The translations under genes and the position numbers were made by a program. Shown in pieces: positions 20,043 to 43,900 of a stretch of DNA of 64,000 nucleotides. Source of the DNA: Bacillota bacterium (GTDB taxonomy: Bacteria; Bacillota; UBA994); assembly GCA_009773495.1 (NCBI GenBank), contig WSXW01000002.1, positions 1-64,000 of the forward strand, written 5' to 3'. The notes below the pieces were generated by a model. The model searched no databases. It had not been told where the DNA came from and was given only the letters and a program-made list of their open reading frames with translations. Numbering within the stretch: the stretch's first letter is position 1; each line of letters opens with the position of its first letter.

Positions 20043-21254
20043 TTGAGTGGATTATTAAAGGTGACATCAGAAGTAGGCGCCTTAAAAAAGGTCTTAGTCC
20101 ATAGGCCGGGGATGGAACTTCGCAACTTAACGCCCCGTTACTTAGGAGACTTATTGTTCGATGAGATTCCTTGGCTTGAAGGAGCCCAGGAAGAGCATGA
20201 TGGTTTTGTAGACGCAATGCGCAAATGTGACGTGGAAGTGTTCTATCTAGAACACATGTTAATCGACCTGTTAATAGATCAACGCCTCAAGGAAGAACTG
20301 ATTAACGAGCAGTTAAGCTTTAGCCCTCTGATGCGACCAGATGTGTTGCGTTATGTGCGGGGTTACTTGAATAACCTTACTAGTAAGGACCTAATTAGCA
20401 CGCTTATGGCTGGGATCAGGAAGACTGATATTAAGCATCTCAAGCCAGAGCAGACGCTGAGTGATTTGACGGTCGGGAGTTATCCTTTCTTGTTAGCACC
20501 GTTACCTAGTCTCTATTTTACGAGGGACCATGGTACCATGATCGGAAGCTGCCTTATGGCTGGCGAGATGTACAACTTTTCGCGGCGTAGAGAAGTAGTT
20601 TTTCTCAAGTTCTTAGAGCGCTATCACCCTGTATTTGAGGACACATATCTCTGTTTTAACCAGGAACTGCCGACTGGCCTCGAGGGTGGTGATGTACTAG
20701 TATTGAGCGATAAGGTTTTGGCGTTAGGCCTCAGTGAGCGTACTACCGAAGAAGCAATCGAATCAGCGGCTGAAGGATTGCTGATTGATAAGCAAACTGT
20801 GGAGACGATTTTAGTCATTGCTATTCCTGCGAAGCGGGCTTACATGCATCTCGACACCGTTTTCACTATGGTCGATTGGGATAAGTTTTTGATCTACCCT
20901 GGTGTCGAGGACGCTATATCCGTATACCGATTAGAACGAGGCCCTTCAGGTAAGGTAAAAGCTACCAGCGAGATTTCTCTTGCGCATGCGCTGGCGCAGG
21001 TATTAGGTCTCTGCTCCGTACAGCTAATTCGCTCAGGCGGCGATGACCCCCTTACCGCTGCGCGTGAGCAGTGGGGGGACAGCACTAATACCGTGGCTGT
21101 AGCGCCAGGTAAAGTCATAACCTATAATCGCAACCAGGTAACCAACGAAATACTGCGCACAAATGGGGTAGAGGTAGTGGAAATAGAAGGGTCTGAATTG
21201 GTGCGAGGCCGCGGTGGACCACATTGCATGACATTGCCTCTCCTGCGGGAGTAG
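20043..21254 (+). CDS. arcA: Arginine deiminase
   Basis: A 403-residue guanidino-modifying enzyme converting arginine to citrulline and ammonia. Seen: [15 protein letters not shown] at the N terminus, FTRDHG, the substrate Glu-x-Gly region LEGGDVLVL, the catalytic His in [10 protein letters not shown], and the C-terminal catalytic Cys in [10 protein letters not shown]. It starts with TTG; TGGAGTG lies upstream at suitable distance. The carbamoyltransferase and carbamate kinase genes of the usual arc operon are not in the window. Confidence 0.95.
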
Positions 21255-24313: not shown

Positions 24314-24350
24314 AACTAGAAACCCCGCTTCGGCGGGGTTTCTAGTTTTA
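24311..24350 (+). terminator. Terminator of pepA
   Basis: A perfect 18-bp stem closed by a TTCG tetraloop, with a short T-run in the 3' arm. It starts within the stop codon. Confidence 0.88.
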
Positions 24351-24425
24351 CGTGGTTATAGAAATAAAAATATTTTCCTGAGTCTTGGAGGAATTACGAA
24401 GTGGGCAATGAATATTATTTTAAAA

Positions 24426-24443
24426 GATTTTAAATTTAAAATC
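24426..24443 (+). promoter_or_regulatory. AT-rich palindrome, candidate operator
   Basis: GATTTTAAATTTAAAATC is a perfect 18-base palindrome 36 bases before the GntR gene. It is a candidate autoregulatory site for the catabolic operon; this is inference, as palindromes occur by chance in AT-rich DNA. Confidence 0.35.
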
Positions 24444-24478
24444 TAAAATTTAATTTGCAGATGGGGAGTATCATTGTG

Positions 24479-25156
24479 ATGGATACGAAGCATTATCAGA
24501 ACCAGACACTTGTTGAGGTAGCATATAAGGCGCTGAAGCGAGACATTGCTGAGAGGGCGTTCTTGCCTGGGCAAAAGCTGATAACTAGGGAATTACATGA
24601 GCGGTACGGTATTAGCGAAACACCTATCAAACTAGCCTTAAATAGACTCATTACGGAAGGCTTAATAGAGAGCATCCCTCGGAGAGGGTTTAGTGTGAAG
24701 AATATTGACTGGGAAGATATAGATGAGCTTCTAGACGTAAGGAAGATGTTAGAGACGTATTATAGCAGTCAAATTTTGGATAACTTTCAGAAGGACATTC
24801 ATATGCAACGGCAATTCTTGGAGAACATCACTGAGCACAAGCGCATTGTAGAGCATGGGGTCGACATCAACGACTATTTCCAAGTCTATTCGCTGGATTA
24901 TGAGTTTCATCAAATGTTTATAAGATGTGCTGGGAATAAGCGCATTGCCCAAGTTTATGACAACCTAGGTACCCATGTGTATGCCTACTATATTTATGGC
25001 AAGCAGAGCAAAGAGGCAACTATTGATGGGGTCAGAGAGCATGAGGATATTTACGAGGCGCTGGTAGCGCGGGATGAGGTCAGACTGCAGCAGTGTGTAG
25101 AGATGCACTTAGAAAATGCCAAGGTGAAAATTAGAAACGTGCTCAAGAATGAGTGA
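24479..25156 (+). CDS. GntR family regulator (FCD domain)
   Basis: About 225 residues: an N-terminal winged helix (RDIAERAFLPGQKLITRELH, then SETPIKLALNRLITEGLI) and a C-terminal all-helical FCD ligand-binding domain with the Asp/His pattern (DVRKMLE, EFHQMFIRCAGN, EHEDIYEALVARD). It heads the sugar-acid operon and probably represses it until the substrate or an intermediate binds. The start is ATG 24479 or the GTG before it, both after GGGGAG; the longer upstream frame would include the ribosome binding site. Confidence 0.9.
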   Translation: MDTKHYQNQTLVEVAYKALKRDIAERAFLPGQKLITRELHERYGISETPIKLALNRLITEGLIESIPRRGFSVKNIDWEDIDELLDVRKMLETYYSSQILDNFQKDIHMQRQFLENITEHKRIVEHGVDINDYFQVYSLDYEFHQMFIRCAGNKRIAQVYDNLGTHVYAYYIYGKQSKEATIDGVREHEDIYEALVARDEVRLQQCVEMHLENAKVKIRNVLKNE

Positions 25157-25174
25157 TACGGCGGGAGGTGAACG

Positions 25175-25999
25175 GTGGGCATGGATTTGCAGGTAGATTT
25201 GCGTAATAAGGTAGCAGTGCTGACAGGCGGGGCGGGAGTTTTGTGCGCTGGAATGGCCGAGGCTCTGGCGGGCAGTGGAGCCAAAGTGGCCGTTTTAGAC
25301 CTAAGGGAAGAGGCGGCTGAAAAAGTTGCGCAGGAGATAAGGGCGACGAGAGGCCTGGCCATAGGCGTTGGTGTTGACGTGCTCTCGAAGCAGTCCTTGG
25401 AGTCTGCCCGGTCGAGAATTCTTCTAGAACTCGGCACAGTCGACATTCTCATCAATGGCGCGGGTGGCAATATGCCACAAGCGACGACAAGTCCCGAGAG
25501 GTCCTTCTTTGACTTGACGGCAGAAGACATCCGCAAGGTGCTTGAGCTAAACTTTATGGGAACGGTACTCGCCACGCAAGTTTTCGGTGAAGTCATGGTA
25601 AAGAAAAATAAAGGCGTTATCATAAATATTTCCTCAATGGCGGCGTACACTCCGCTCACGCGAACTATCGCCTACAGTGCCGCCAAAGCTGCCGTGTCGA
25701 ATGTTACGCAGTGGCTGGCCGTGCACTTTAACCAAGAATATTCCAAAGAGATTCGCGTCAATGCCATAGCCCCGGGTTTCTTAATTACCGACCAAAACAG
25801 GTACCTGTTAATGGATGATGCGACTGGGGAAGCCACTCCGCGCGGGCAAGCCGTACTAGCGGCTACCCCCATGGGGAAATACGGGAGAATGGAGGATTTA
25901 TTGGGGGCGGTGTTGTTTCTTTGTTCAGAAGCGTCATCCTTCGTGAATGGAGCCATAATCCCCCTTGACGGCGCCTTTTCTGCGTATTCGGGGGTGTGA
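25175..25999 (+). CDS. SDR oxidoreductase (mannonate-oxidoreductase-like)
   Basis: A 274-residue short-chain dehydrogenase. Seen: the NAD(P) motif TGGAGVLCAGMA, the NGAGG strand, catalytic Ser in NISSMAAY and YSAAK, and PGFLITDQNRYL, with a C-terminal FSAYSGV. This pattern is that of the SDR-type D-mannonate/fructuronate oxidoreductases (YjmF-like). It would interconvert a sugar acid and its keto form. It starts with GTG after GGGAGGTG, 18 bases after the regulator, and ends 15 bases before the next gene. Confidence 0.88.
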   Translation: MGMDLQVDLRNKVAVLTGGAGVLCAGMAEALAGSGAKVAVLDLREEAAEKVAQEIRATRGLAIGVGVDVLSKQSLESARSRILLELGTVDILINGAGGNMPQATTSPERSFFDLTAEDIRKVLELNFMGTVLATQVFGEVMVKKNKGVIINISSMAAYTPLTRTIAYSAAKAAVSNVTQWLAVHFNQEYSKEIRVNAIAPGFLITDQNRYLLMDDATGEATPRGQAVLAATPMGKYGRMEDLLGAVLFLCSEASSFVNGAIIPLDGAFSAYSGV

Positions 26000-26014
26000 A
26001 GGGGAGGATCAAAC

Positions 26015-27286
26015 ATGGAAAACAGATATCTGGTGGCCAAAACTGTAGATGGTCTTGCCCCTGCAGAGATTGAGCTGGCAATCAAGGAGTACTTCAATGG
26101 GTCTACCAAGGCGAAAAAGGTGTTAATTGTGCCACCGGATATTTCAAGGTTAAATTCTTATGCAGGTCCCCTTGTCAATATGCTATGTAAACATTTTCCT
26201 GATACGGAAATAGACATAATGCCTGCGTTGGGTACGCATACCCCTATGTCGGATAGAGAAATCAAGAAAATGTATGGCGATCTTCCGCACAGTAGATTTC
26301 TAATTCATGATTGGCGCAATGACACTGTCAATGTCGGGCAGGTTGCGGCAAGCTACGTGCAAGAGATATCCGGGGGCGTGATGGAGCAAGGCATTATTGT
26401 AGACGTCAATAAGAGACTGCTCGACCCGACATATGACTTCGTAATATCAGTGGGTCAGGTTGTTCCGCATGAGGTGGCTGGCTTTGCTAACTACACTAAG
26501 AATATTGTGGTGGGGTGTGGTGGCAGTAGCATGATAAATCAAAGTCACTATTTGGGTGCTTTGTACGGCATGGAACGTATTATGGGCCGGGTAGATAACC
26601 CGGTGCGCAAGCTCTATAACTACGCGGTGAGCCAATTTTTGTCCGATGTACCAGTGATCTATATGTTGACTGTCACAACATTTAGTGAAACAGGGCTCAA
26701 AGTCGAGGCGCTCTCTATCGGTGGAGGCGACGAGCTCTTTGCCGAAACAGCAAAAATTAGTGCACAGAAAAACATGACTCTTTTAGAGCAGCCTCTACAA
26801 AAGGTGGTTGTCTACCTAGACCCGGAGAAGTTTAAGACAACTTGGGTGGGCAACAAGGCCATCTATAGAACTAGAATGGTCATCGCAGATGGCGGAGAAC
26901 TAGTAGTGATTGCCCCTTCTCTGGAAGCGTGTGGCGAGGATAGAGAAAATGACAGGTTGATCAAGAAGTTTGGCTATTTACCGCAACATGAAGTCTTAGC
27001 GGCGGTAAGCGAGGATGAGGAATTAGGGAAAAATCTGTCGGTGGCTGCCCACCTCATACACGGCTCTAGCGAAGGCCGGTTTAAGGTGACTTATGCGCCA
27101 GGGAAAATGTCCAAAGAGCTTATTGCGTCGCTCAATTACGATTACCTGCCACTAGATGATGCCTTACATAAATATGATGTCGATAACATGTGCGAGGGGT
27201 TCAATGTAATAGACGGGGAAGAGATATTTTATATCAGTAATCCCGCTCTCGGTCTTTGGACTACCAAGTTCAGGTTCAACAGCTAG
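26015..27286 (+). CDS. LarA-family nickel-dependent racemase/epimerase homologue
   Basis: A 423-residue homologue of lactate racemase LarA, which uses the nickel-pincer nucleotide cofactor to interconvert 2-hydroxyacid stereoisomers. Seen: D42 and R45 in PPDISR, H75 in GTHTPM, then H152 in PHEVAG, K162 in YTKNI and H178 in QSHYL. The spacings H-10-K and K-16-H equal those of LarA (H174, K184, H200 from memory of the family), and D-3-R also matches. So the cofactor Lys and Ni-ligand His are kept. The LarB, LarC and LarE cofactor-making genes are not in the window. Its place in a kinase/aldolase operon suggests a sugar-acid epimerase rather than a lactate racemase. GGGGAGG precedes the ATG. Confidence 0.88.
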   Translation: MENRYLVAKTVDGLAPAEIELAIKEYFNGSTKAKKVLIVPPDISRLNSYAGPLVNMLCKHFPDTEIDIMPALGTHTPMSDREIKKMYGDLPHSRFLIHDWRNDTVNVGQVAASYVQEISGGVMEQGIIVDVNKRLLDPTYDFVISVGQVVPHEVAGFANYTKNIVVGCGGSSMINQSHYLGALYGMERIMGRVDNPVRKLYNYAVSQFLSDVPVIYMLTVTTFSETGLKVEALSIGGGDELFAETAKISAQKNMTLLEQPLQKVVVYLDPEKFKTTWVGNKAIYRTRMVIADGGELVVIAPSLEACGEDRENDRLIKKFGYLPQHEVLAAVSEDEELGKNLSVAAHLIHGSSEGRFKVTYAPGKMSKELIASLNYDYLPLDDALHKYDVDNMCEGFNVIDGEEIFYISNPALGLWTTKFRFNS

Positions 27287-27306
27287 AGTAAAGGGGATTG
27301 TTTTGT

Positions 27307-28794
27307 ATGCTGATTCTTGTCTTGGAGGCTTCCACGGCGTCGGCCAAGGCCATGTTGTACGACGATCGTCTAGGCATCGTTGGCATTTTGCCTAGGAACT
27401 ACTCTCTGGATGCCGGCGATACGGTGACGTATGACGCCGACAAACTGATGTGGGAAACGCTCCGAGCAGGGCGAGAGCTCTTAGCGCAAAAGGGAATAGA
27501 CCATGTAGACATGATTGCCACGTGTAGTATTTGGAGTCATTCTCTTTTGATGCTTGACAACAATAAGCGCCCGGTCGGGCGTCTTAGCACCTGGGCTGAC
27601 ACAAAGCCATGGCCGACCACCGAAAAATACAGGCGCGACATTAAACTTTTCGTCTCCCTATATAAGCGCACCGGTTGCCCCATTCACACCACATATACTC
27701 TCTGGAAATATATCCATGAAAAAGAGTCTGGCTCTACTGATGGCGTGGCTTTCATCGCTTCTATGCCGGAGTATCTTTTTTATAAGCTCACCGAGGAGTT
27801 TGCAGTTTCTAAGAGCACTGCCTCGGCCAGTGGCTTCTTGAATCTGTATTCGTTGGAGTGGGACAAAGAGGTATTAAGCCTAGCAGGGGTTGATGAAAAA
27901 ATGCTCCCCAAGCTAGTGGGGTCAGAATATACTGCGCCTCTAACCAAGGGAGCGGCAGAAATTTTAGGCCTACTAGAAGGCATTCCAGTTCTTATAACCG
28001 GCGCGGATGGTTGCATGAACCATGTAGCAGCAGGCGGATTTAGCGAGGATATTATGACTCTCTCCATAGGTACTAGCGCTGCCATGCGCCTAGCGACCGA
28101 TAGGCCGATCCTTGCCGACTACCCTGCCACGTGGTGCTATGTCGGCGTGGAAAACATGTGGGTGGCGGGGAGTGCCACGGCCGGTGCGGGTAATTGTGTG
28201 GACTGGATAGGCAAAAAGATTCTCGGAATTAAGAACAGCCTTTCGCTCAAGGAATTAGATGCTGGCGCAGAAAAGGCCCTCTTGAGGGGGGATGCCCCTA
28301 TCTTTTTGCCGTTCTTAGCAGGAGAGCGCTGCCCGGCCTGGGATGACACCAAGAGTGCTATGTTTTGTGAACTGCGCATCAACCATGACATCTATGATCT
28401 CTACTATGCCGTTCTGGAAGGCGTGCTTTTCAATCTCAGGCAGTGTTATGAGATTACCATTCCCATCATCGGTCGTTCCCCAAAATTCATCAGTATTTCC
28501 GGTGGCATCGAAGAGTCACCGCTGTGGTTATCAATGGCGGCTTCGATCTTTGGTTTGCCCGTGCATACCAATGGGCTGATGCATACTTCATTGCTCGGCA
28601 CCGCCTATATGGGGTTAAAAGCTGCAGGTGTCATGGACTCAGTAAGAGACATAGCTCCCCAGATAGGGGGCAGCTATGAGCCGGAGTGTGACAGAGCAGA
28701 GTTTTTTACTAAGCGCTTTCAGAGGTATTTAAAATACTATGCATGGGAAACTTTAGGCCGGTCTGCGCGGGACAAGGATGGTGACTACAGGTGA
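27307..28794 (+). CDS. FGGY family carbohydrate kinase
   Basis: About 495 residues, actin-like ATPase kinase. Seen: N-terminal ILVLEASTASAKAMLYD (phosphate 1 loop, D/E variants), GADGCMNHVAAGG and SIGTSAAMR in the second half, catalytic Asp in the AGAGNCVDW region, FLPFLAGERCPAWD (as in gluconate/xylulose kinases) and the adenosine motif ISGGIEESPLWL. Likely phosphorylates the sugar acid or its keto form. The ATG at 27307 follows AAGGGG with 10 bases; the TTG at 27298 is too near. Its stop overlaps the next start (GTGA). Confidence 0.9.
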   Translation: MLILVLEASTASAKAMLYDDRLGIVGILPRNYSLDAGDTVTYDADKLMWETLRAGRELLAQKGIDHVDMIATCSIWSHSLLMLDNNKRPVGRLSTWADTKPWPTTEKYRRDIKLFVSLYKRTGCPIHTTYTLWKYIHEKESGSTDGVAFIASMPEYLFYKLTEEFAVSKSTASASGFLNLYSLEWDKEVLSLAGVDEKMLPKLVGSEYTAPLTKGAAEILGLLEGIPVLITGADGCMNHVAAGGFSEDIMTLSIGTSAAMRLATDRPILADYPATWCYVGVENMWVAGSATAGAGNCVDWIGKKILGIKNSLSLKELDAGAEKALLRGDAPIFLPFLAGERCPAWDDTKSAMFCELRINHDIYDLYYAVLEGVLFNLRQCYEITIPIIGRSPKFISISGGIEESPLWLSMAASIFGLPVHTNGLMHTSLLGTAYMGLKAAGVMDSVRDIAPQIGGSYEPECDRAEFFTKRFQRYLKYYAWETLGRSARDKDGDYR

Positions 28795-29726
28795 AAGTGC
28801 TAATTACCCCTAAATCGTTCAAGAACTACAAGGGAAAGACCTACCCACTTCTCGAAAGTGCGGGCTGGCAAATCATCGAAAATAACACGGGCAGGACATT
28901 ATCCGAGAATGAGGTTATTGAGCTAGCGGGAGAGGGTGTATATGGTATCATCGTCGGCATCGATATCTTGTCTGAGCGGGTGCTTAAGAACTGTAGAGAC
29001 TTAAGGGCAATTTCGAAGTACGGTGTCGGCTTAGACAATATCGATTTAGCGGCCGCAGCGAGACTCAACATCAAGATAATGAATGCGGTGGGTAGCAATA
29101 ATATCTCGGTCGCAGAGTTGACGCTAGCCCTTATGTTCGAAGCCGCCCGCAGGGTTTCGGTCCTCGGCGCAAACGTTAAGGCACACCGCTGGGAAAGACT
29201 TATGGGCATGGAGTTGACAGGGAAGACCGTCGGCTTGATCGGTGGTGGGCAAATAGGAAAGGAAGTAGCAAAACGGGCCAGAGGATTAGGTATGTACGTG
29301 AGCATATTTGACCCTTATTTTAAGGACTCTGCTTTTCTTGAGGAGCATCAGATCCACTTGTGCGGGTCGCTACACGACCTATTGAGAGTATCAGACGTGG
29401 TGTCCCTGCATTTGCCTTTGACTACAGACACCAAATACATCTTGAACAGCGAGACTCTCAGTCTCATGAAACCGACAGGCGTCTTGCTCAACACTTCCCG
29501 GGGCGAGCTAGTAGACGAAGCTGCACTTTATGTGGCGCTCAAAGAAAAGGTGATTGCCTTTGCCGCCCAAGATGTGTTTTCCATGGAACCGCCAGCGCCA
29601 GATGAAAAGCTGCTATCCTTGGACAATTTCCTATTGACACCCCATGCGGGAGCTTACACGGCGGAAGCAATTGAGAGAATGGCACTCCATTCTACACACA
29701 ATCTCCTTAGAATGCTCAACACTTAG
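28791..29726 (+). CDS. D-2-hydroxyacid dehydrogenase (phosphoglycerate-dehydrogenase-like)
   Basis: A 311-residue NAD(P)-dependent dehydrogenase. Seen: the nucleotide motif GLIGGGQIGKEVAKRA, active-site Arg in NTSRGELVDEAAL, the Glu in VFSMEPP and the His in LTPHAGAYT. No ACT or regulatory domain is present, so it is not likely the serine-pathway enzyme. In the operon it probably oxidises a phosphorylated hydroxyacid intermediate. It starts with GTG overlapping the kinase stop by four bases. Confidence 0.88.
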   Translation: MKVLITPKSFKNYKGKTYPLLESAGWQIIENNTGRTLSENEVIELAGEGVYGIIVGIDILSERVLKNCRDLRAISKYGVGLDNIDLAAAARLNIKIMNAVGSNNISVAELTLALMFEAARRVSVLGANVKAHRWERLMGMELTGKTVGLIGGGQIGKEVAKRARGLGMYVSIFDPYFKDSAFLEEHQIHLCGSLHDLLRVSDVVSLHLPLTTDTKYILNSETLSLMKPTGVLLNTSRGELVDEAALYVALKEKVIAFAAQDVFSMEPPAPDEKLLSLDNFLLTPHAGAYTAEAIERMALHSTHNLLRMLNT

Positions 29727-29752
29727 CTACAGCGGCTGGTTGGAGGTTAAAA

Positions 29753-30397
29753 ATGAAAAAATGGCACGTTTTAAACAGCATAGTCAGCGTAGGATTGGTA
29801 GCGGTCGTGAGAGCAGAGAATAGCGAAATGGCGACGAGCATTGCCTCTGCTTGCTTGGAGGGGGGATTGTCGGCTATAGAAATAACGTATACAGTTCCTG
29901 GTGCGACGGACATTATCAGTAAGCTTAGCCATACTCATGGCCACAATATTATCTTAGGGGCTGGAACGGTGCTTGACCCAGAAACAGCCCGACTGGCCAT
30001 TCTGGCCGGTGCGCAATACATAGTCAGCCCGAGTTTCAACCTGGACACGGCTCGCCTGTGCAATCGCTATCAGGTGCCATACATGGCTGGCGTCATGACC
30101 ATTCGGGAAGTCATCGAGGCGCTAGAGAATGGTGTCGATATCTTAAAAGTTTTTCCGGGTGAGATCTTTGGGCCACAAATTATTAAGTCCATCAAAGGAC
30201 CACTGCCGCAAGCCAATTTATTGCCAACAGGCGGCGTTTCGCTTGAAAATGTCGAACAATGGATATCCGCAGGAGCGATCGCAGTGGGAGTCGGTGGCCA
30301 GTTGACGGCCGGGGCCAAAACAGGCAACTATGGAGCAATAACCGAGTATGCAAGCAAGATGATTGCAAAGATACGGTCGGCCAGAGCAAAGAGTTAG
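29753..30397 (+). CDS. eda: 2-keto-3-deoxy-6-phosphogluconate/KHG aldolase
   Basis: A 214-residue class I aldolase of the KDPG/KHG family that splits a 2-keto-3-deoxy (or keto-hydroxy) acid to pyruvate plus an aldehyde. Seen: VAVVRAENSEMA, the Glu in SAIEITYTVPGA, GAGTVLDPE, the Schiff-base Lys in VDILKVFPGE (about residue 131), and LLPTGGVSLENVEQWISAGA. Length is normal. GGAGG precedes the ATG. It is the final catabolic step of the operon before the transporter. Confidence 0.92.
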   Translation: MKKWHVLNSIVSVGLVAVVRAENSEMATSIASACLEGGLSAIEITYTVPGATDIISKLSHTHGHNIILGAGTVLDPETARLAILAGAQYIVSPSFNLDTARLCNRYQVPYMAGVMTIREVIEALENGVDILKVFPGEIFGPQIIKSIKGPLPQANLLPTGGVSLENVEQWISAGAIAVGVGGQLTAGAKTGNYGAITEYASKMIAKIRSARAKS

Positions 30398-30556
30398 CGG
30401 TGTGAGCAACTGTTGTTGCGTAGGCTGCACCGTCAAAAATGTTGGCGCAAGAGGAGGAGGTGTGCTCTGGGTCAAATTATGTTGAGTGTGCGTTGGATGT
30501 GATAGGGGAGCGTAAATTGAGCTAAATGTGAAACGAGAAAATAGGAGGGAAAACAG

Positions 30557-31573
30557 GTGACAACAAAACGCTCACGAAAAGGTCTTACCGTCTTGATGGT
30601 AGTGGCCTTAGCCACGGCGATGCTGTTAGTCAGCGGGTGTCAAGAGGAAGAGCAGGAGAAGTTTGTGCTTAGGTTTAACCATGTATTAGCACCGACGGAG
30701 CCCTATCATCAAGGATTCCTAGATTGGGCTAAGCGCGTATCCGAGCGGACTAATGGGGGCCTGACAATCGAAGTTTCTCCGAGTGCCCAACTCGGCAAAG
30801 AAGAAGACATCATCGAGCAGCTAAGAATGGGAGCTAATATAGGGCAAAATACTGACTCTGCCCGCCTTGGCATGTACGTGCCAGCCATCGCTGTCTTAAA
30901 TGCGCCGTATTTCGTCGACAACATCGACGAGGTCACCAAGCTTAGAGATCTGCCAGCTGTCCAGCAATGGCTGAAAGAACTTGAGTTTAAATTTGGTATT
31001 AAGGTTTTGTCATTTAACTGGGTACAGGGCCATCGGTACATGATAACTAACGTACCGATCAGACATCCAGACGATCTCAAGGGTCTCCGTATCAGAACCC
31101 CTGGGGTACCAATTTGGCAGGAATCTATCCGCGCCATTGGCGCGACTCCTGTATCACTTCCCTTTGGAGAAGTCTATACGGCGATGCAGACAGAGGCTAT
31201 TGACGGTGCTGAACTCGTGTATCGCAACGTGACTGGGGCAAAACTCTTTGAGATTGCCGATTACCTGAGCGAGACGGGGCATATTTTGTTGATCAACTTC
31301 TCCATCGTGGGGAGAGCGTGGTTTGACAGCCTACCTGCTGAATATCAGAAGATACTTATTGAGGAGAATGAAAAAGCCGGCCTAGAGACCTCGAGAAAAA
31401 TGGAAGCGGATATAGCTGTGGCGAGGGCAGAACTTGTGCAAAATGGCATGACCATCATCACTGATGTTGACGTGGCGGCCTTTAGGGCAGCCGGCGAGGC
31501 AGCCTACGCTGCACTAAATCTCACAGCGGCACGCGACAAAATATACGAACAGCTAGGCAAAACAAGGCCCTAA
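30557..31573 (+). CDS. dctP: TRAP transporter substrate-binding protein DctP
   Basis: A 338-residue lipoprotein: a lipobox LLVSGC at about residues 23-28 indicates membrane anchoring on the outer face. The DctP fold motifs follow: FNHVLAPTEPYHQG, a Gln/Asp binding cleft, and the conserved Arg in GLRIRTPG, which salts to the carboxylate of the ligand. TRAP systems import organic and sugar acids using ion gradients. GTG start after AGGAGGG. First of three transporter genes in the operon. Confidence 0.93.
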   Translation: MTTKRSRKGLTVLMVVALATAMLLVSGCQEEEQEKFVLRFNHVLAPTEPYHQGFLDWAKRVSERTNGGLTIEVSPSAQLGKEEDIIEQLRMGANIGQNTDSARLGMYVPAIAVLNAPYFVDNIDEVTKLRDLPAVQQWLKELEFKFGIKVLSFNWVQGHRYMITNVPIRHPDDLKGLRIRTPGVPIWQESIRAIGATPVSLPFGEVYTAMQTEAIDGAELVYRNVTGAKLFEIADYLSETGHILLINFSIVGRAWFDSLPAEYQKILIEENEKAGLETSRKMEADIAVARAELVQNGMTIITDVDVAAFRAAGEAAYAALNLTAARDKIYEQLGKTRP

Positions 31574-31677
31574 TCACTCGTCGTAGTGATACGGGTGGCA
31601 TGTCGGCCCTGCGTTATCGCGGGGCTGGATGCCGCCTGTAAATCCGGCTAGCTGTGCAGAGAGGTGGTTAGGAAATT

Positions 31678-32154
31678 ATGGCAATCGTATCAAGGGTCTA
31701 TGACTTCATTTGCCGAACTGAACTGTTCATCACTAAAGCTTTTATAGCTGCGCTCACCGGGCTGGTCTTCTTCTCGGCCCTAGCAAGAACCTTGCGCCAC
31801 CCCGTGAGCTGGGCCATAGACATAGCGATTTTTCTTTTCGTCTGGTGCGTTTTTTTCAGTGCTGATATAGCTATGCGCAAAGATAAGCTGGTAACAGTCG
31901 ACATCGTGACTGTTTATCTGCCCCCAAAAATCCAGCGCGCCCTTAAATTAGTTAATTATCTTATTATCAGCTTATTTTTGTTTTTTTTAATATATTATAG
32001 TATTCATTTATCCTATACTAGCAGATTTGTGCGCTTTCAAGGGATAACTTGGTTCAGCTACACCTGGGTTGTCTTGAGTGTGCCTGTTGGGTGTACGTTG
32101 TTACTCATCACATCTATCTTGAAGATGTGGAAGTGTTATAAAAATGGACCCTAA
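31678..32154 (+). CDS. dctQ: TRAP transporter small permease DctQ
   Basis: A 158-residue membrane protein with four hydrophobic segments and the family pattern WAIDIAIFLFVWCVFFSADI followed by a charged RKDKLVTVDIV. It holds the large permease and binding protein in the import complex. GAGAGGTGG precedes the ATG; the gene follows dctP at 104 bases and precedes dctM at 42 bases. Confidence 0.9.
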   Translation: MAIVSRVYDFICRTELFITKAFIAALTGLVFFSALARTLRHPVSWAIDIAIFLFVWCVFFSADIAMRKDKLVTVDIVTVYLPPKIQRALKLVNYLIISLFLFFLIYYSIHLSYTSRFVRFQGITWFSYTWVVLSVPVGCTLLLITSILKMWKCYKNGP

Positions 32155-32196
32155 GGCAAATCAAATATCAGCGGCAGTTAGCAGGAGGACGACCAG

Positions 32197-33480
32197 ATGA
32201 CTCTAGTGTTTTTTCTTTTTCTGCTGTTTATGATGATGGGCATGCCCGTCGCCTATGCTATTGGCATATCAGGGACTGTCTTTTTTCTGCAGCTGGGGAC
32301 GCTGCCTCTGACTATACCGGTGCAGCTTTTTCTCACACAGTCGCAAAATTTCGTTTTGCTGGCCATTCCACTGTTCGTGTTTGCAGGCAATCTCCTCAAC
32401 GAAACGGGCATAACTGTTCGCTTACTAAAACTCTCATCCATCTTGGTAGGGCATTTCCGAGCTGGCTTGGCACAGGTTACAGTAGTTTTATCGGCTATGA
32501 TGGGCGGCATCTCGGGTTCGGCCATTGCCGATGCCTCTATGCAAGGACGCATTTTGCGAGACGGAATGATCGCGAGAGGTTATTCTAGGGGCTTCTCCGC
32601 CGGCATCATCGGCACAAGCGCCCTCATCGTGACCATGATTCCACCAAGCATTGGCCTCGTCTTGTATGGAAGCATTGGCGAGGTTTCTATCGGTCGTCTC
32701 TTTGCCGCAGGCATCGTACCGGGTCTCCTCATAACAGTTTTTTTGTTTGCGGGTGTGGAATTTGTCGCTAGAAGGAAAGGCTACCAACCGGAACGGCAGA
32801 CCAGAGCCCCAGTTAAAGAGATGGCAGTTACTTTTGTCGAATGTATCTGGGCTTTTCTCTTCCCCATTATTTTGATGGCTGGGTTGCGGCTTGGTTTTTT
32901 CACTCCGTCAGAAGCTGGTGCTTTTGCGGCAGTCTATGCCATAGTGATTGGGGTATTTGCGTACAAAGAATTTACCTGGGGAAAATTTTTAAAAACCTTA
33001 GAGTCCACAGCCATTGATATTGGCATGATTATGCTCGTCATCAGCATGTCTGCAATTTTCAGCTACGGTATAACGTGGGACGGGTTGCCACAGGCGCTAG
33101 CTCAGTTCCTGTTGGGGATATCATCCATCCCTTGGGTGATAATGCTTATTATCATTCTGTTCTTGCTTGTTGCCGGGATGTTCATGGACTCTACGGTCTT
33201 AATTTTACTTCTCACCTCCATACTTGTTCCTGTCGCCGGCACTTTGGGCATTGATCTGGTGCATTTTGGCATTGTGATGGTCTTAACGCTTACGGTGGGG
33301 CTCCTCACTCCCCCTCTTGGCGTCGTCATGTTTGTCGTTTGCTCGATATTTGAATGTTCTATCTGGGAATTTATGAAAGAATCGTGGGTATTTATGGCGC
33401 TCGTAGTGCTTGCAGTAATGCTGGTCATTTTCTTTCCCGGGCTCGCATTATTCTTGCCCAACTTATTTTTTGGAACATAA
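32197..33480 (+). CDS. dctM: TRAP transporter large permease DctM
   Basis: A 427-residue membrane protein with about eleven to twelve hydrophobic segments. Seen: GMPVAYAIGISG near the N terminus, the GNLLNETGIT loop, the SGSAIADAS stretch and the two-fold repeated GLLTPPLGVVMFV pattern of DctM/SiaM large permeases. It forms the sodium-coupled transport path. GGAGG precedes the ATG. Followed by the second SDR at about 30 bases. Confidence 0.92.
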   Translation: MTLVFFLFLLFMMMGMPVAYAIGISGTVFFLQLGTLPLTIPVQLFLTQSQNFVLLAIPLFVFAGNLLNETGITVRLLKLSSILVGHFRAGLAQVTVVLSAMMGGISGSAIADASMQGRILRDGMIARGYSRGFSAGIIGTSALIVTMIPPSIGLVLYGSIGEVSIGRLFAAGIVPGLLITVFLFAGVEFVARRKGYQPERQTRAPVKEMAVTFVECIWAFLFPIILMAGLRLGFFTPSEAGAFAAVYAIVIGVFAYKEFTWGKFLKTLESTAIDIGMIMLVISMSAIFSYGITWDGLPQALAQFLLGISSIPWVIMLIIILFLLVAGMFMDSTVLILLLTSILVPVAGTLGIDLVHFGIVMVLTLTVGLLTPPLGVVMFVVCSIFECSIWEFMKESWVFMALVVLAVMLVIFFPGLALFLPNLFFGT

Positions 33481-33512
33481 GGCGAGGCGCTTGATTAAGG
33501 AGGATGTTAGTG

Positions 33513-34274
33513 ATGTATTTTCATAATCAGGCGGTGCTCATAACTGGCGCCGGCGCAGGCATAGGTCGTAAAACTGCCGTGTTATTCGCTGAGCGGGGCG
33601 CAAAAGTGGCAGTCAATGATTTGCGCGCATCAGCTGGTGGTGAGGAGACACTGCAGTTGGTGCGGAACTTGGGCGCTGAAGGCATCTTTGTGGCGGGAGA
33701 CGTCTCTGTAGCCTTGGATGCTGAGAAGATGGTCAACGAAACTGTTTCGGCATTTGGCAAAATTGATATCTTGATCAACAATGCAGGGATTGTCCTGCCA
33801 GGTCGCGTAGACAATATGTCGGAAGACGACTTTGATAGAACGATGCGGGTAAATGTGAAAGGCGCCTTCTTGGTAGCCAAATATGCCGTTTTGGAGATGA
33901 AAAAGCGTGGTGGAGGGGCTATTGTAAATATCGCTTCTGTCGCTGCCCTCAAAGGCATACAGGACAGAAGTGCTTATTGTGCCTCCAAAGGCGCTCTCGT
34001 CTCTCTCACTAGGGCGATGGCCGCCGATTATTTAAAAGAGAACATCCGCGTTAACTGCGTTTGCCCCGGCACCACTTATACACCGTCCTTAGAGGAGAGG
34101 ATACAGGCACACAAAGACCCAGAAGCGATGCGAGCCGAATTCATTAGCAGGCAACCCATGGGGCGTCTTGGCAAAGAAGAAGAAATAGCCCATGCTGTTT
34201 TGTTTGCTTGCTGCGCTGAAGCCGCCTTTATGAACGGCAGCATCGTCAGCATTGACGGCGGTGCCTTAATCTAA
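33513..34274 (+). CDS. SDR oxidoreductase (FabG/keto-deoxy-sugar-acid dehydrogenase-like)
   Basis: A 253-residue short-chain dehydrogenase. Seen: TGAGAGIGRKTA, NNAG, catalytic Ser in NIASVAAL and YCASKGAL, and PGTTYTPS, with the C-terminal MNGSIVSIDGGA. It resembles SDRs that oxidise 2-keto-3-deoxy sugar acids, but general FabG-like roles cannot be excluded. The ATG at 33513 (or the adjacent GTG) is used because AAGGAGG ends just before an ATG at 33504 that is too close. It is the last gene of the operon. Confidence 0.82.
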   Translation: MYFHNQAVLITGAGAGIGRKTAVLFAERGAKVAVNDLRASAGGEETLQLVRNLGAEGIFVAGDVSVALDAEKMVNETVSAFGKIDILINNAGIVLPGRVDNMSEDDFDRTMRVNVKGAFLVAKYAVLEMKKRGGGAIVNIASVAALKGIQDRSAYCASKGALVSLTRAMAADYLKENIRVNCVCPGTTYTPSLEERIQAHKDPEAMRAEFISRQPMGRLGKEEEIAHAVLFACCAEAAFMNGSIVSIDGGALI

Positions 34275-34984: not shown

Positions 34985-37162
34985 TTGAAAAAACTCTTAA
35001 CGGCTATTCTTGTGGCTGTGATGGTGGTTTCATCGGTACTGCCAGTCGCAGCGCAGGAGAACGCCAGCCTGCCGGAGGCAATTAAGCTTGCCAAGAGCCT
35101 ATTCTCAACAGATAGCTTTACGCAATTCTGGTCTCACCAGGAAACCTACAATGGTCGCACAACTTACCAGCTTTACTGGAGCGAAGAAAATGGCGTAGAT
35201 AAGTCGCCAGCTCACTTGACTGTGCGGGTAGATGCGCAGCGACTACTGATTACAGGCTACAATTATCAACCAGCCTACCAAGAACAGGCCTACCCACCCC
35301 TTCCGAAGATGGGGGAAAATGAGTGCCTGACAGTGGCAGAGGCCTTCGCGGCTAAACTCGCACCTGAGCATTTTGCCCAAATGAAGCTAGAAAAGGTGGA
35401 TAAACCCCAGATTCGCATTGAAAAGCGCTCCGGGCCTCTGTCATATATCTTCCGTTATGTGCACTATATTAACGGAATCGCATTTCAGCCTAATAATATG
35501 CATGTAAGCGTGAATGGTGACACCGGTGAAATTCAAGATTACTACCTCACCTGGGAAGATTATGAATTTCCGAGCACCGAGGGTACACTTACCCTCGCGG
35601 ATGCTCAAGAGGTTTTTAAAACTAAAGGTCTTAAATTAGTGTATTCCCGTCGATACAGCTGGCGCGAGCAGACCAATAAACCATATTTGGCCTATACACT
35701 CGAAAATGGTAGCGCCATGCAGATCGACGCCGTTACCGGTGAAATTACCTATGGCGGTTACCGTGTTTATAATACCTCCTTGACGAAGGATATGCCGGCG
35801 GTAATGGGACTCTCTCGCGAGCAGGCGTTTACTCCATGGGAACTAGAGGAAATTGATACGGTTGCAGGGCTGCTCACTGTAGAACAAGGTGAAGCTATTG
35901 CCCGTGAGATAATCAGTCTGTCGGAGAAGGCACAACTGCGCAGTTCTAGGCTGATGGAGGACAAATCAGAAAATTTACGTTTCTGGAATCTAGAGTGGGA
36001 GTACATGATTGAAGACTATTATGTGGGCGCTAGCGCACGGCTTAACGCCGCTGACGGGGAGATTCAGAATTTTCACTTCTGGGAGAAGACTTCCCCCCAA
36101 GAGGGCGAACCTAAACTTACGTACGAGGAAGCTCTTGCAGTAGCCAGCGAGTTCCTGCAAAAGTGGTTACCTGCAAAGTACGAAGATACAGAGCTCACTT
36201 CAAGGTACAAACATCAAGATGGACAACGCTTGCCTCACACCTATAGCTTCACCTTTGAGCGGAGAATCAATGGCCTGCCTGTAGTTGGCGACAGTATGAA
36301 CGTGAATGTACAATACGATAAGCGTGTCACTAGCTTCTACTCCAACTGGTACAACGGTGAATTCCCCTCTGCTGAGGGTGCGCTTACTGTCGAGGAGATG
36401 AACGACATCTTCCTACAGAATGTGGGCCTTAAGATCGAGTATGTTCACCATTTCGATTCTGCTTCTAGCTCGGAGTTTAATGTATATTCTAGTGCGAGGT
36501 ATGCTCAGCCGACTATAAAGCTCGTCTATAAGGCCAATGAGCTTAACTCCTACAGCTTTAACCCCGTTACTGGGAAGAGCATGGACTACTACGGCAAAGA
36601 CATCGTACCTGTCACAAAGCCAGAGTATAACGATATCGCTGGCCACTGGGCACAGGCCGCTATTGTCCGCTTAGTAGACTTGGGCCTGTTACGTTTAGAA
36701 GGTTCTGAGTTCAGGCCAGACGAGGCGATTAAGCTTGGAGACTTGCTTATGATGCTGTCAGATGCCTCTGGTGATCAGAACAGTGAACCCATCCTACCAT
36801 TGTGGCTTAAAAAGCATAATACTAGTAACTATGCTGATGCACTGTGGTACGGAGTAGCACGGGGTATCATTAGGGAGAAGGATAAGGATATAGACCCAGA
36901 GACTCTAGTTACTCGCGAAGTCTTGGCGTTCTACCTTGCTAGGATGCAAGGGTACAGCGAGGCTACTAGTCTCAAGGGTATCTGGACTGCTCCTTACTCA
37001 GACTTTGCTTTAGTCAGCACTGAGCGCCAGGGCTCTGTGTCCATCGTGCATGCTCTGGGGTTAATGGGCAGTGGTGGCAATGGCCAGTTCTTGCCTAAAC
37101 AAGAGGCAACTCGTGCACAAGTAGCTGTAATTCTCTCCCGTATGCTAGATAAGACTAACTAA
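34985..37162 (+). CDS. Secreted YcdB/YcdC-domain protein with SLH repeats
   Basis: A 725-residue exported protein. Residues 1-25 form a signal peptide (KKLLTAILVAVMVVSS, cleaved near VAAQE). The central part has repeated PepSY/YcdB-YcdC-like units, each with a VNGDTGEIQDYY or LNAADGEIQNFHF-type strand and a LTVEQGEAIA or LTYEEALAVA helix. The C-terminal about 170 residues carry SLH-type repeats (YNDIAGHWAQAAIVRLVDLG, then a final segment with FLPKQEATRAQVAVIL), which anchor proteins to cell-wall polymers. Probable role: cell-surface or propeptide-like function. Start is TTG after AAGGGGGA. Confidence 0.88.
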   Translation: MKKLLTAILVAVMVVSSVLPVAAQENASLPEAIKLAKSLFSTDSFTQFWSHQETYNGRTTYQLYWSEENGVDKSPAHLTVRVDAQRLLITGYNYQPAYQEQAYPPLPKMGENECLTVAEAFAAKLAPEHFAQMKLEKVDKPQIRIEKRSGPLSYIFRYVHYINGIAFQPNNMHVSVNGDTGEIQDYYLTWEDYEFPSTEGTLTLADAQEVFKTKGLKLVYSRRYSWREQTNKPYLAYTLENGSAMQIDAVTGEITYGGYRVYNTSLTKDMPAVMGLSREQAFTPWELEEIDTVAGLLTVEQGEAIAREIISLSEKAQLRSSRLMEDKSENLRFWNLEWEYMIEDYYVGASARLNAADGEIQNFHFWEKTSPQEGEPKLTYEEALAVASEFLQKWLPAKYEDTELTSRYKHQDGQRLPHTYSFTFERRINGLPVVGDSMNVNVQYDKRVTSFYSNWYNGEFPSAEGALTVEEMNDIFLQNVGLKIEYVHHFDSASSSEFNVYSSARYAQPTIKLVYKANELNSYSFNPVTGKSMDYYGKDIVPVTKPEYNDIAGHWAQAAIVRLVDLGLLRLEGSEFRPDEAIKLGDLLMMLSDASGDQNSEPILPLWLKKHNTSNYADALWYGVARGIIREKDKDIDPETLVTREVLAFYLARMQGYSEATSLKGIWTAPYSDFALVSTERQGSVSIVHALGLMGSGGNGQFLPKQEATRAQVAVILSRMLDKTN

Positions 37163-37506: not shown

Positions 37507-39084
37507 TTACGCTTCGGCGGGTCCTACTGCGGCAATTTCCTGGGCGACAGTCGCGAATTGGGCAAAGTTTTCGCAGAAACGTCTAGCCAGAGAGTTGGCA
37601 GTGCGGTCGTAAAAATTCTTATCCTGCCAATTGTTGCGCGGAGTTAGCAGTTCCTGTGGAACTCCGGCAACAAAGTCGGGTACTAAGACTTGAAAGATAG
37701 GATCACGGCGGTATTCGCAGCGATCGAGCTCGCCGTTTAAGATCGATGTAATAATCGCTCGCGTATAGGCGATGGAGATGCGCTTGCCAACACCATACCC
37801 TCCACCGGTCCAGCCGGTGTTCACAAGAAATACCCGAGCACCGCTCTGCTCAATCTTTTCACCGAGCAGCTTAGCATAAATACTAGCATGCATAGGCATA
37901 AATGGAGCTCCGAAGCATGTCGAGAATGTTGCTTGTGGCTCGGTAATGCCCCGCTCAGTGCCTGCCAACTTGCTGGTGTAACCAGACATAAAATGATACA
38001 TGGCCTGCTCCTTGCTGAGTTTGGCTACAGGAGGCAGAACACCAAAGGCGTCAGCGGTCAGGAACACAATAGTACGGGGGATGCCTCCTAAGCCGGACCG
38101 TGAAGCATTAGGGATATACTCCACTGGGTAACAGGCGCGAGTATTCTCTGTAAGGCTCTCATCGTTGTAATCAGGAACACAGTTTTGAGAATCAATCACA
38201 ACATTTTCTAACAGGGAGCCAAAACGTAGCGCGTTCCAGATTTGGGGTTCTTGTTCTTGTGAGAGGTGGATGCACTTGGCATAGCAACCACCCTCAAAGT
38301 TGAATACCCCGTTATCCGCCCAGCCATGCTCGTCATCTCCGATGAGCATGCGATCCGGGTCAGCTGAGAGGGTAGTCTTACCCGTGCCAGAGAGACCAAA
38401 AAACAGCGCAACATCATCGTATATGCCGATATTGGCGGAGCAATGCATCGGTAGGACCCCTCGCTTGGGGAGCAAATAGTTAAGCACGGAGAATACGGAC
38501 TTTTTCATTTCTCCAGCATAGCCGGTGCCCCCGATGATAACTAGACGGCGCTCAAAACTTATTATGACAAAAGCTTCAGAATTTGTGCCATCGACAGCTG
38601 GGTCAGCTTTAAGCCCTGGGGCTGATATTACGGTAAAGCTAGGCTCGAAATTGACAAGTTCTTCAGGCTGGGGCCTACGGAAAATCTGGGTCGCAAAAAG
38701 ATTATGTGAAGCTAACTCGTTGACGACCCGGATGTTTAAACGGTATTCTTCATCCGCGCCTACGTAACCGTCAAACACATAGATTTCGCGGTCGTTAAAG
38801 TACGCTGTGATTTTTTCGAAAAGTTTGTCAAACTTGAGGGGCGAAAACGGTAAATTCACCTTGCCCCAATCGATGTCGTCGTGTACAGTCGGCTCATCAA
38901 CAATGAAGCGATCGTTAGGAGATCTACCAGTATACTTCCCGGTTATAACGTTAAGCGCGCCTGTGGCAGAAAAGGTGCCTTCGCCGTTTAACACTGATTT
39001 TTCCACGAGCAACGGCACAGCTAGATTGCGATGGATACACTGTGCAGTGTTTATGCCGAGAGAGCCTAAAATTTCTATGCTCAT
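37507..39084 (-). CDS. pckA: Phosphoenolpyruvate carboxykinase (ATP)
   Basis: A 525-residue ATP-dependent PEP carboxykinase, interconverting oxaloacetate and PEP. Seen: [13 protein letters not shown], the substrate loop, kinase-1a loop [14 protein letters not shown] (Walker A, about 245), kinase-2 region GDDEHGW, the [10 protein letters not shown] metal site and TGWTGGGYG. Length is normal. AAAGGAG precedes the ATG. Such an enzyme feeds gluconeogenesis from amino acids or C4 acids, in keeping with the amino-acid genes nearby. Confidence 0.96.
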
Positions 39085-40951: not shown

Positions 40952-40993
40952 ACTTCGCCATGCGCAATGTGCAATTTAAGAGGAGGTCCCCCC

Positions 40994-43900
40994 ATGTCCC
41001 TACGTTTTATTCTCGGACGAGCCAATTCTGGCAAGAGTACTCTTATATATGATGAAATTACTAGGCAGGTGCAGTCTGAACCGGACGGCCCGCCTCTTTG
41101 GTTACTAGTTCCTGAACAGGCGACTTTTCAGGTGGAGCAGGCCTTAGCAGAACGACTTGGTGGCATAATGCGCGTACGCGTAGTTAGCTTCAAACGGTTA
41201 GCTTACAACGTCATGAACCACGTAGCGGGGGCAGCCCTCACACCTATCAGCGACCTGGGTCGACGCATGCTCGTACGTAAGATAATCGAGGAGCACAAGC
41301 GCGACCTTAAGCTCTTTGCGCGAGCGGCTAGCTATCCTGGCTTCGCTGACAAGGTGGTAGAGCTTATTTCTGAGCTAAAGCGTTATCGGGTTAAACCACA
41401 GCAGCTCAACGAACTATTAACATGCGAGGCGGCTATAGCTTTGCCCCCTACGCTCAGGAGCAAATTGCACGACCTGAGCATTATCTATAGCCATTTGGCG
41501 GCAAAGTATGTAGGGGTTGCCTTTGACACTGAGGATTGCCTAGAATGGCTGGCTGAGCATGTATCTGCCTTTGCTCCCCTTAGTCATACGCAAGTCTGGG
41601 TGGATGGTTTTACTGGCTTTTCTCCCCAAGAGTACGGCACTATCGAACGATTGCTGAGGATGTCTGACGTGCACATGTGCGTTACTGTGGAGCCTAATTG
41701 CATTGAGGAGCAACTTGTAGAGGGTCACCCATTTTATGGTCCCTGGGAAACCATTGTTCAAGTGCGCTCCTTGGCAACACACGCCGGGGTACCAATAACA
41801 GTAGTGGCGCTAGGTCCAGATTATTCATCAGAAAAGGTGACGGACTTAAGCTACTTGGAGCAAGCATATTTCGAGCGCGACAGTGTACCTTTTACGGGTT
41901 CGGTATTAGGAATCGAACTGAATGCTGTTGCTACCCGTCGCGCTGAAGTTGAGGTTGTAGCGAGAGAGATAGTTCGCTTGTGCCGCGAAGAAGGCTACAG
42001 ATATCGTGACCTTTGCCTCATAGTACGCGACGTAGCTCTATACGATTCCTTTGTAAGAACAGTGTTTACCACTCACGATATCCCCGTGTTTATTGATAAA
42101 AAACGAAAGGTTCGCCATCACCCATTGCTGGACTTAATTCGTGCCTCATTAGAGGCTGTATTGCAGGATTTTCCTTATGAGCCGGTGATGCGTTGCCTGA
42201 AGTCAGGTCTCTTTTCGCTCGCTGGCGACGAAGTGGATTTTCTTGATAACTTTGTCCTTGCCACAGGTATACGTGGGAATCGTTGGCTAGACGACTCGGA
42301 TTGGCGCATACCTAAGAGCCTGAGCCTAGGACAGGAAAATAATGAGGGCTTGTCTGCCCTCATTAACTCTGCTAGGAAAAAGGTATCTGCGCACTTTCGC
42401 GCCCTAGCTAGGGGGCTTAGGGCAGCTACTGACGTGCAGGAGTATAGTCAGGCCATCTACACTTTTCTTGAGGGCTTAGATGTCCCTGCTACGTTAGGAG
42501 CTTGGGCCGAAGAAGCAGCACGAGAAGGCGATCTAGATACTGTTGGCTTACATCTGCAGGTGTTTGACTCTGTCAGTCAGCTCCTGCAAGAAGTAGAGAC
42601 GACGCTAGGCGATGAGTACATTATGTTACCGGAGTTTGCTCGAATCCTAGAAACAGGTTTGGAAGGCATAAGCCTAGGGCTCATCCCCCCTGGTCTAGAT
42701 CAGGTTATAGTGGCTGAGCTAGGAAGGTCGCGTAGCCCGCTAGTACGGGGAGCGTTTGTGCTGGGCGTAAACGAAGGTATTATGCCCGCTAAGTCACAGG
42801 TCGAGGGCTTATTGTCTGATGAAGAAAGGGAATGCCTGAGCAGTTTCAATGTGGCACTAGGTCCCACATCTCGCCGTCAGCTATTTGATGAGGACTACCT
42901 TGTTTACACCGGATTAACTAGGCCGCGAGAATTCCTACGCATCAGTTATGCAGTGTCCGATGTGGATGGCGCACCTTTATCGCCATCACTTGTGATCAAG
43001 CGCATCAGAGAAATTTTTCCTAATTTATCGATATCGTCTATTGGAGGGGAGCCGCCGAGTATCCCCGCAGTCGCTCTATCATATCTGCAACATCACCGTA
43101 GCGCAGTAGGCTTTCTGGCAACAGAACTGCGCAGAGCAAAAAGCGGAAACGAGGTATCAGATCTGTGGTGGGATGTTTTTACTAGCCTGCTTGAGCACCC
43201 TACGGGTAGAACCTCAGTGGCTACAGCAGTGCGTGGCTTATATCATCAAGTGAGGCTTGATCCCTTGTCTGCCCACCTTGTCAGTCAGCTATATGGAAAG
43301 ACGATACGCGGCAGCGTTTCTAGACTGGAGCGTTTTCGCGCGTGCCCCTTCTCCTATTTTGCAGCCTATGGCCTTAAGCTGAGGGAGAGGCCAATCTATC
43401 GCTTGGCGGCTGTCGACTTAGGAAATTTCTTTCATGCTGCTCTTGACCGCTTTGTAGATGCGTTGTGCAGTCAAAAACTAGATTGGGCGGCTCTTAGCCG
43501 TGACCAGTATAAGAGCATAACTCAGGAAGTAGTTGATGCTATAATACCAGAGTTAGACAGCGATGTACTTCTCAGTACCGCTCGTTACCGGCATTTGACG
43601 CAGCGGTTACAACGAGTTGTAGAACGTTCAGCTAGAGTCTTAGGTCATCATGCTGAGCGCGGGAGTTTTCGACCCATTGGTGTAGAGGTCGGCTTTGGGG
43701 GGCATGGCGACGCGCTGCCGGCGCTCAAAATAGAGCTTGCAGATGGGACCACCCTTGAGATAGTTGGGCGCATTGACCGCATAGATACGGCCGAGGCTGA
43801 GGGAAGGCTTTACTTGCGGATTATTGATTACAAATCTGGGCACAGCAGGCTGACTCCCCTTGAGGTGTATTACGGGCTTAAAATACAGTTACTAACATAC

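Follow-up and report, generated by a model that had tools for sequence, protein, structure and literature searches.

A ten-gene operon built around a homologue of the nickel-pincer enzyme LarA is located at positions 24479-34274 of contig WSXW01000002.1, from a Bacillota bacterium of the UBA994 lineage (assembly GCA_009773495.1); the stretch analysed, hereafter the window, comprises the first 64,000 nucleotides of this contig. In addition to the LarA homologue, the operon encodes a GntR/FCD-family regulator, two short-chain dehydrogenases (SDR1 and SDR2), an FGGY kinase, a D-2-hydroxyacid dehydrogenase (HADH), a 2-keto-3-deoxy-6-phosphogluconate (KDPG)/KHG-type aldolase (Eda) and a TRAP transporter (DctP, DctQ and DctM). 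On balance, the operon is probably a self-contained unit for the uptake and degradation of a hexonate or keto-hexonate, with HADH and Eda providing the exit. The epimerase core of this explanation is held with high confidence; an HADH-Eda exit of some kind is advanced only tentatively. The gene set, the protein families, the intact LarA site, the cofactor genes, the gene linkage and the lack of matches to alternative enzyme families were established from sequence and comparative genomics.

The gene content, single direction and gene order recorded in the first-pass annotation of the window were confirmed, with all ten genes found on the + strand. The full order GntR-SDR1-LarA-FGGY-HADH-Eda-DctPQM-SDR2 is kept in the same-family relatives L059, L060 and L063 (51-89% protein identity), with a further locus from this family, L061, being cut by a contig end. 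The same order was found in another family, in Clostridiales bacterium PH28_bin88 (LAKY01000019; 57-79% identity), which is represented by loci L057 and L070, apparently one record. Because the gene order is kept across relatives and into another family, the ten-gene operon is a real, maintained unit and not a chance assembly. In L070 as in L071, SDR2 is a neighbour of the TRAP genes. Locus L071, from the Actinomycetota metagenome-assembled genome STD1_194, holds a distant version of the set (TRAP, SDR2, LarA, SDR1, HADH-like and Eda-like genes) in a different gene order, and no match to UxuA was found in that genome.

The LarA homologue and its genomic neighbours

It had been suggested at first reading that the LarA homologue epimerises C2 of a sugar acid rather than racemising lactate, and the comparisons made here support this. 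The protein scored 37-68 bits against the NCBI models of lactate and malate racemases, far under their cut-offs, and lacks the selectivity residues of those enzymes; both identities were therefore rejected. It exceeds the cut-off of NF052594, the NCBI model of LarA group 18, which is named 'putative hexonate epimerase'. The nearest solved structure is 4nar (172.9 bits, compared with 37 bits for LarA and 21 bits for Mar2), which we take to be the apoprotein of the Thermotoga maritima gluconate epimerase, as used in the in vitro work on GntE.

The spacing of the nickel-pincer site was found as originally described, at D42-x2-R45 and H152-10-K162-16-H178. In an alignment of 16 homologues D42, R45, H75, H152, K162, H178, W277 and K281 are invariant; of these, H75, H152, R45, K162 and H178 are equivalent to LarA1 H108, H174, R75, K184 and H200, i.e., the catalytic histidine pair and the arginine, lysine and histidine that bind the nickel-pincer nucleotide (NPN). 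Gluconate 2-epimerases usually carry E, V, A and H at the positions of LarA1 F175, F176, W358 and T359 (PMC11770544). This GntE selectivity set is complete in the LarA homologue, as E153, V154, A345 and H346, the last two having been mapped through an AAH motif common with 4nar and not through LarA1. Absence of larB, larC and larE from the genome had been named as an observation that would count against the idea; all three are present, clustered as larC, larE and larB elsewhere in the genome (contig C1; L067:9355-12117) and above their NCBIfam cut-offs. In the control for this search, LarC was also found to be encoded in the Thermotoga genome. Together with the gene linkage described below, the family, residues and nearest structure make C2 epimerisation of a sugar acid a well-supported prediction for this protein. 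The same genome encodes two further LarA paralogues (L003, G000:C44, and L001, G000:C75), one of which belongs to NPN group 22 (488.6 bits, cut-off 400), while the other is closest to malate racemases, below the cut-off.

A hexonate substrate was proposed for group 18, without an assay, by Desguin and colleagues (PMC7583248). The neighbourhoods of group-18 LarA genes were compared at 110 loci, 30 from the phylum and 80 from a genome collection (a few are in both sets), using a gene caller that weighs conservation. Gnd (6-phosphogluconate dehydrogenase; reference copy TIGR00873, 716 bits) lies within ~10 kb of LarA at 65 of the 110 loci, mostly at less than 1.2 kb, and is on the same strand as LarA in 64 of those 65. 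SDR1 is present at 56/110 loci, and further neighbours include the tagaturonate epimerase UxaE, UxuA, a mannitol-dehydrogenase-family oxidoreductase, an EDD-type dehydratase, KdgK and Eda. The LarA-Gnd neighbourhood is not a product of chance. Because Gnd adjoins LarA so often, and often with the same SDR, the group-18 family very probably interconverts D-mannonate and D-gluconate. The simplest reading of these neighbourhoods is a pathway in which SDR1 would reduce fructuronate to D-mannonate, LarA would convert this to D-gluconate, and a kinase would form 6-phosphogluconate for Gnd.

Other arrangements were seen among these loci. At L053:11708-12883 and in the corresponding stretch of L055, UxuA, HADH, FGGY and TRAP genes accompany group-18 LarA; the genomes lack Gnd, and LarA may there work in the opposite direction to the usual reading, turning gluconate into mannonate. 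A protein of ~418 amino acids is encoded near the SDR1-LarA genes at six loci (L051:5144-6397, L042, L045, L047, L048 and L052); for the L051 copy, neither Pfam (E up to 1) nor NCBIfam gave a match. Directly downstream of the group-18 gene, L051:10639-11970 encodes a second LarA homologue, a distant one with 24% identity to that of the window.

Proposed fate of 6-phosphogluconate

In the proposed pathway, the TRAP transporter would import a sugar acid, and SDR1, with SDR2, would interconvert 5-keto and 5-hydroxy forms and deliver D-mannonate. LarA, loaded with NPN from LarB, LarC and LarE, would invert C2 to give D-gluconate, and the FGGY kinase would phosphorylate this to 6-phosphogluconate. 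HADH would oxidise C2, on the 2R side created by LarA, to a 2-keto acid that Eda would cleave to glyceraldehyde-3-phosphate and a three-carbon 2-keto acid (hydroxypyruvate if C3 bears a hydroxyl group). Mannonate is a 2S acid and gluconate a 2R acid, and D-2-hydroxyacid dehydrogenases use the 2R form. In this scheme we infer the substrate of each enzyme, the direction in which flux runs and the step assigned to HADH and Eda.

The window's genome is a draft of 2.52 Mb in 76 contigs (97.8% complete). It was searched with one profile per enzyme family, and the same profiles matched their targets in control genomes. No match was found in it to Gnd (PF00393), the Edd/IlvD-type dehydratases (PF00920), UxuA, the altronate/galactarate dehydratase domain (GD_AH) or UxaC. 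The sole strong MR_MLE protein of the genome scored best with Ala-Glu epimerases, below the cut-off, and its gene adjoins a peptidoglycan hydrolase-like gene. The classic Entner-Doudoroff and oxidative pentose-phosphate exits were rejected on these grounds, as were mannonate dehydration through UxuA or through an enzyme of the altronate type or the enolase superfamily (either not found or Ala-Glu epimerase-like) and entry through uronate isomerase. As UxaC was not detected, fructuronate is unlikely to arise from glucuronate, and the transporter probably imports an aldonate or a keto-aldonate. With none of these families detected, 6-phosphogluconate is left without a recognised exit and Eda without a recognised source of KDPG. 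An exit through HADH and Eda is suggested because the rest of the genome yielded no known enzyme that uses 6-phosphogluconate or feeds the aldolase; the economical inference is that Eda cleaves a 2-keto acid produced by HADH.

The comparison of genomes bears on this step. Gnd is absent from all six full-operon genomes and present in 22/25 other group-18 genomes; five of the six are from one family, so that independent cases are few, and one (G217) was included though its contig ends inside the FGGY gene. The HADH-Eda pair also recurs without a dehydratase in other lineages: in G176, G016 and G289 both genes are within the LarA operon, EDD and UxuA are absent from the genomes and Gnd is present. 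HADH is most like the phosphoglycerate dehydrogenases, which act on phosphorylated 2-hydroxy acids. Its catalytic set (R237/E266/H285) is invariant in the homologue alignment, as are E43 and K132 of Eda, which also keeps the PTGG motif; the T. maritima reference row of the Eda alignment was typed in, with its first residues unchecked. The best PDB match of the FGGY kinase is the gluconate kinase 3gbt (E 2e-40). That of DctP is 2hpg (E 8e-109), presumably T. maritima UctP, and is taken as a lead only.

The exit may take the form of a dehydratase-free analogue of the Entner-Doudoroff pathway, in which HADH would form 2-keto-6-phosphogluconate by oxidising either 6-phosphogluconate or, ahead of the kinase step, gluconate, and Eda would split the phosphorylated keto acid to glyceraldehyde-3-phosphate and hydroxypyruvate. 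The same HADH might reduce hydroxypyruvate to glycerate, so that the split would be redox-neutral. This particular form is a possibility in which confidence is low. The reaction type of its oxidation step is known, since KguD catalyses the reverse (PMC11678583), and class II aldolases accept hydroxypyruvate (PMC7610986).

Several points weigh against the proposed pathway. HADH could act in the reductive direction, as KguD does, and for both HADH and the FGGY kinase the score against the best NCBI family stays under the curated cut-off. KDPG aldolases normally yield pyruvate, and our literature search found no class I aldolase that splits a 3-hydroxy substrate to hydroxypyruvate; nor did it turn up an assayed group-18 enzyme. 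The genome searched is a draft in many contigs, and EDD/IlvD-type genes are present in G217 and G112. Gnd occurs alongside HADH in G176, G016, G289 and G299, and a one-for-one replacement of Gnd by HADH was rejected because the two coexist in these four genomes.

An alternative is that the operon funnels ketogluconates and hexonates into gluconate. HADH would then be a KguD-like reductase of 2-ketogluconate or 2-keto-6-phosphogluconate and the SDRs would act as 5-keto reductases; together with LarA, these enzymes would all lead to gluconate and 6-phosphogluconate, the latter being used by an unrecognised enzyme. Such a reduction of 2-keto-6-phosphogluconate is performed by KguD in the Pseudomonas kgu operon (PMC11678583), and HADH is found both where Gnd is present (L037, L044 and L050) and beside FGGY and an EDD-type dehydratase (L064). 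In the window's genome, however, this arrangement would give 6-phosphogluconate no exit and Eda no feed, and it is considered rather unlikely.

The canonical-looking Eda beside an oxidoreductase in dehydratase-free genomes could also be accounted for by a 3-deoxy-hexonate of the metasaccharinate type. LarA would equilibrate its C2 epimers, FGGY would phosphorylate C6 and HADH would form KDPG, from which Eda would release its usual products, pyruvate and glyceraldehyde-3-phosphate; neither a dehydratase nor unusual aldolase chemistry would be required. However, the LarA-SDR1-FGGY module is related to Gnd- and UxaE-linked copies, which indicates mannonate and gluconate, and SDR1 would be left with no role as a mannonate oxidoreductase. 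Neither the literature nor the sequence offered evidence for such a substrate here, and this explanation is improbable. Least credible is a reversed LarA, in which gluconate would be converted to mannonate, dehydrated to 2-keto-3-deoxygluconate and passed as KDPG to Eda: group-18 LarA is paired with FGGY, HADH, TRAP genes and UxuA in the Gnd-less genomes of L053 and L055, but no UxuA, altronate-type dehydratase or recognised enolase-superfamily sugar-acid dehydratase was detected in the window's genome.

Operon layout, operator and flanking genes

The features of the operon are collected in the table. The final stop codon ends at 34274, in agreement with the first reading. The intergenic gaps are, in gene order, 18, 15, 11, -4, 26, 159, 104, 42 and 23 nt; the 'short gaps or overlaps' initially noted thus apply to most junctions (<45 nt), but not to Eda-DctP (159) or DctP-DctQ (104). 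The gntR frame is open from TTG 24455, and ATG 24479, which lies behind GGGGAG, is the more likely start. For SDR2, no equivalog scored above its cut-off among the 25 families shown.

Features of the operon, with the matches on which each assignment is based
Feature	Position	Strand	Basis
Candidate operator, perfect 20-bp palindrome AGATTTTAAATTTAAAATCT upstream of gntR	24425..24444		Palindrome scan of window
GntR/FCD-family regulator	24479..25156	+	PF00392 55.5 bits; PF07729 59.9 bits
SDR1, D-mannonate oxidoreductase (fructuronate reductase) type	25175..25999	+	NF006132 367.8 bits (cut-off 281)
LarA homologue, group 18; predicted nickel-pincer-dependent D-mannonate/D-gluconate 2-epimerase	26015..27286	+	NF052594 582 bits (cut-off 500); catalytic, NPN-binding and GntE selectivity residues
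FGGY kinase, probably gluconokinase	27298..28794	+	Best family TIGR01314 gntK 217.5 bits, below cut-off
HADH, D-2-hydroxyacid dehydrogenase, phosphoglycerate-dehydrogenase-like	28791..29726	+	PF02826 190 bits; TIGR01327 249.9 bits, below cut-off
Eda, KDPG/KHG-type class I aldolase	29753..30397	+	NF005119 296 bits (cut-off 238); TIGR01182 182 bits (cut-off 156)
DctP, TRAP solute-binding protein	30557..31573	+	PF03480 257.7 bits
DctQ, TRAP small permease	31678..32154	+	PF04290 78.1 bits
DctM, TRAP large permease	32197..33480	+	PF06808 348 bits; TIGR00786 399 bits
SDR2, short-chain dehydrogenase conserved beside TRAP genes	33504..34274	+	PF13561 213.8 bits

The palindrome AGATTTTAAATTTAAAATCT is the sole perfect palindrome of at least 18 bp within the 64 kb window. 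It recurs upstream of gntR in relatives, being identical in L060, matched at 18/20 bp in L059 and L061, and present as half-sites in L057; because of this recurrence it is a plausible operator for the GntR regulator and is put forward as a candidate site. A strong hairpin at 24314-24347 follows the upstream leucyl aminopeptidase gene. Scans for promoters and terminators returned sites no more numerous than in shuffled sequences, and the RNA family search found none near the operon. Directly downstream, 34985-37162 encodes a 725-amino-acid protein with a YcdB/YcdC repeat domain (DUF4901) and an S-layer homology domain. Ordinary genes for arginine deiminase (20043-21254), an ATP-type phosphoenolpyruvate carboxykinase (37507-39084) and an AddB-type nuclease (40967-44434) also flank the operon.

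Comparison with known systems

The first-pass annotation had presented the operon as undescribed. For the core this does not hold: Rodionova et al. 2012 (cited in PMC6978723) put forward a Thermotoga pathway made up of mannonate oxidoreductase, GntE and gluconokinase, the T. maritima UxaR regulon contains gnd-uxaR-uxaE-uxaD-gntE-gntK (PMC3750489), and the activity of Thermotoga GntE (GntE2) was shown in vitro (PMC7583248). Both systems bring together a GntR-family regulator, an oxidoreductase, a LarA-type gluconate 2-epimerase and a gluconate kinase. In the window's operon the co-occurrence of fructuronate reductase, GntE and gluconokinase is seen with SDR1 above the NF006132 cut-off and FGGY closest to gluconate kinases, below cut-off. 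In Thermotoga, however, gnd is part of the operon and kdgA-kdgK-uxuB-uxuA forms an operon of its own, whereas Gnd, UxuA and UxaC were not found in the window's genome; the window's operon in turn holds HADH, Eda and a TRAP transporter, and its LarA belongs to group 18 and not, like that of Thermotoga, to group 20. The description as new stands for the proposed HADH-Eda exit in a genome without detected Gnd, Edd or UxuA. The epimerase core is thus already known in kind, while the lower half is without a described counterpart.

Other systems share parts of this arrangement. The Pseudomonas kgu operon (kguE-kguK-kguT-kguD; PMC11678583) likewise places a kinase and a C2 oxidoreductase around 2-keto-6-phosphogluconate and 6-phosphogluconate, and the family of HADH would suit the C2 oxidoreductase role of such a 2-ketogluconate pathway; the kgu operon, however, is reductive, leads into the Edd/Eda pathway and has no LarA, and Edd was not found in the window's genome. 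In the galacturonate route of Lactobacillus suebicus, a 6-phosphomannonate 2-epimerase (PMC6978723) also connects mannonate to 6-phosphogluconate by C2 epimerisation, but there phosphorylation comes before epimerisation, and 6-phosphogluconate is passed on to Gnd and phosphoketolase. The TRAP transporter is possibly of the type found in the UctR/UctMPQ regulon of Thermotoga, which covers a sugar pathway that is uncharacterised (PMC3750489), given that DctP is closest to 2hpg. Of the Entner-Doudoroff pathway, the genome has the KDPG aldolase (Eda, by NF005119, TIGR01182 and E43/K132) but no detected Edd; of the hexuronate isomerase pathway, neither UxaC nor UxuA was detected. The LarA homologue agrees with group 18 (NF052594) in both sequence family and signature residues, and D-mannonate/D-gluconate is proposed here as its substrate from the gene neighbourhood.

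From the gene neighbourhoods, the analysis proposes a concrete substrate for group 18, an unassayed branch of the superfamily of nickel-pincer enzymes. It also draws attention to a group of bacteria that have a KDPG aldolase and enzymes that form gluconate, yet in which no known route in or out was detected. Should HADH and Eda close this gap, sugar acids would have a new central route; otherwise there must be either a dehydratase that went unrecognised or a new substrate.

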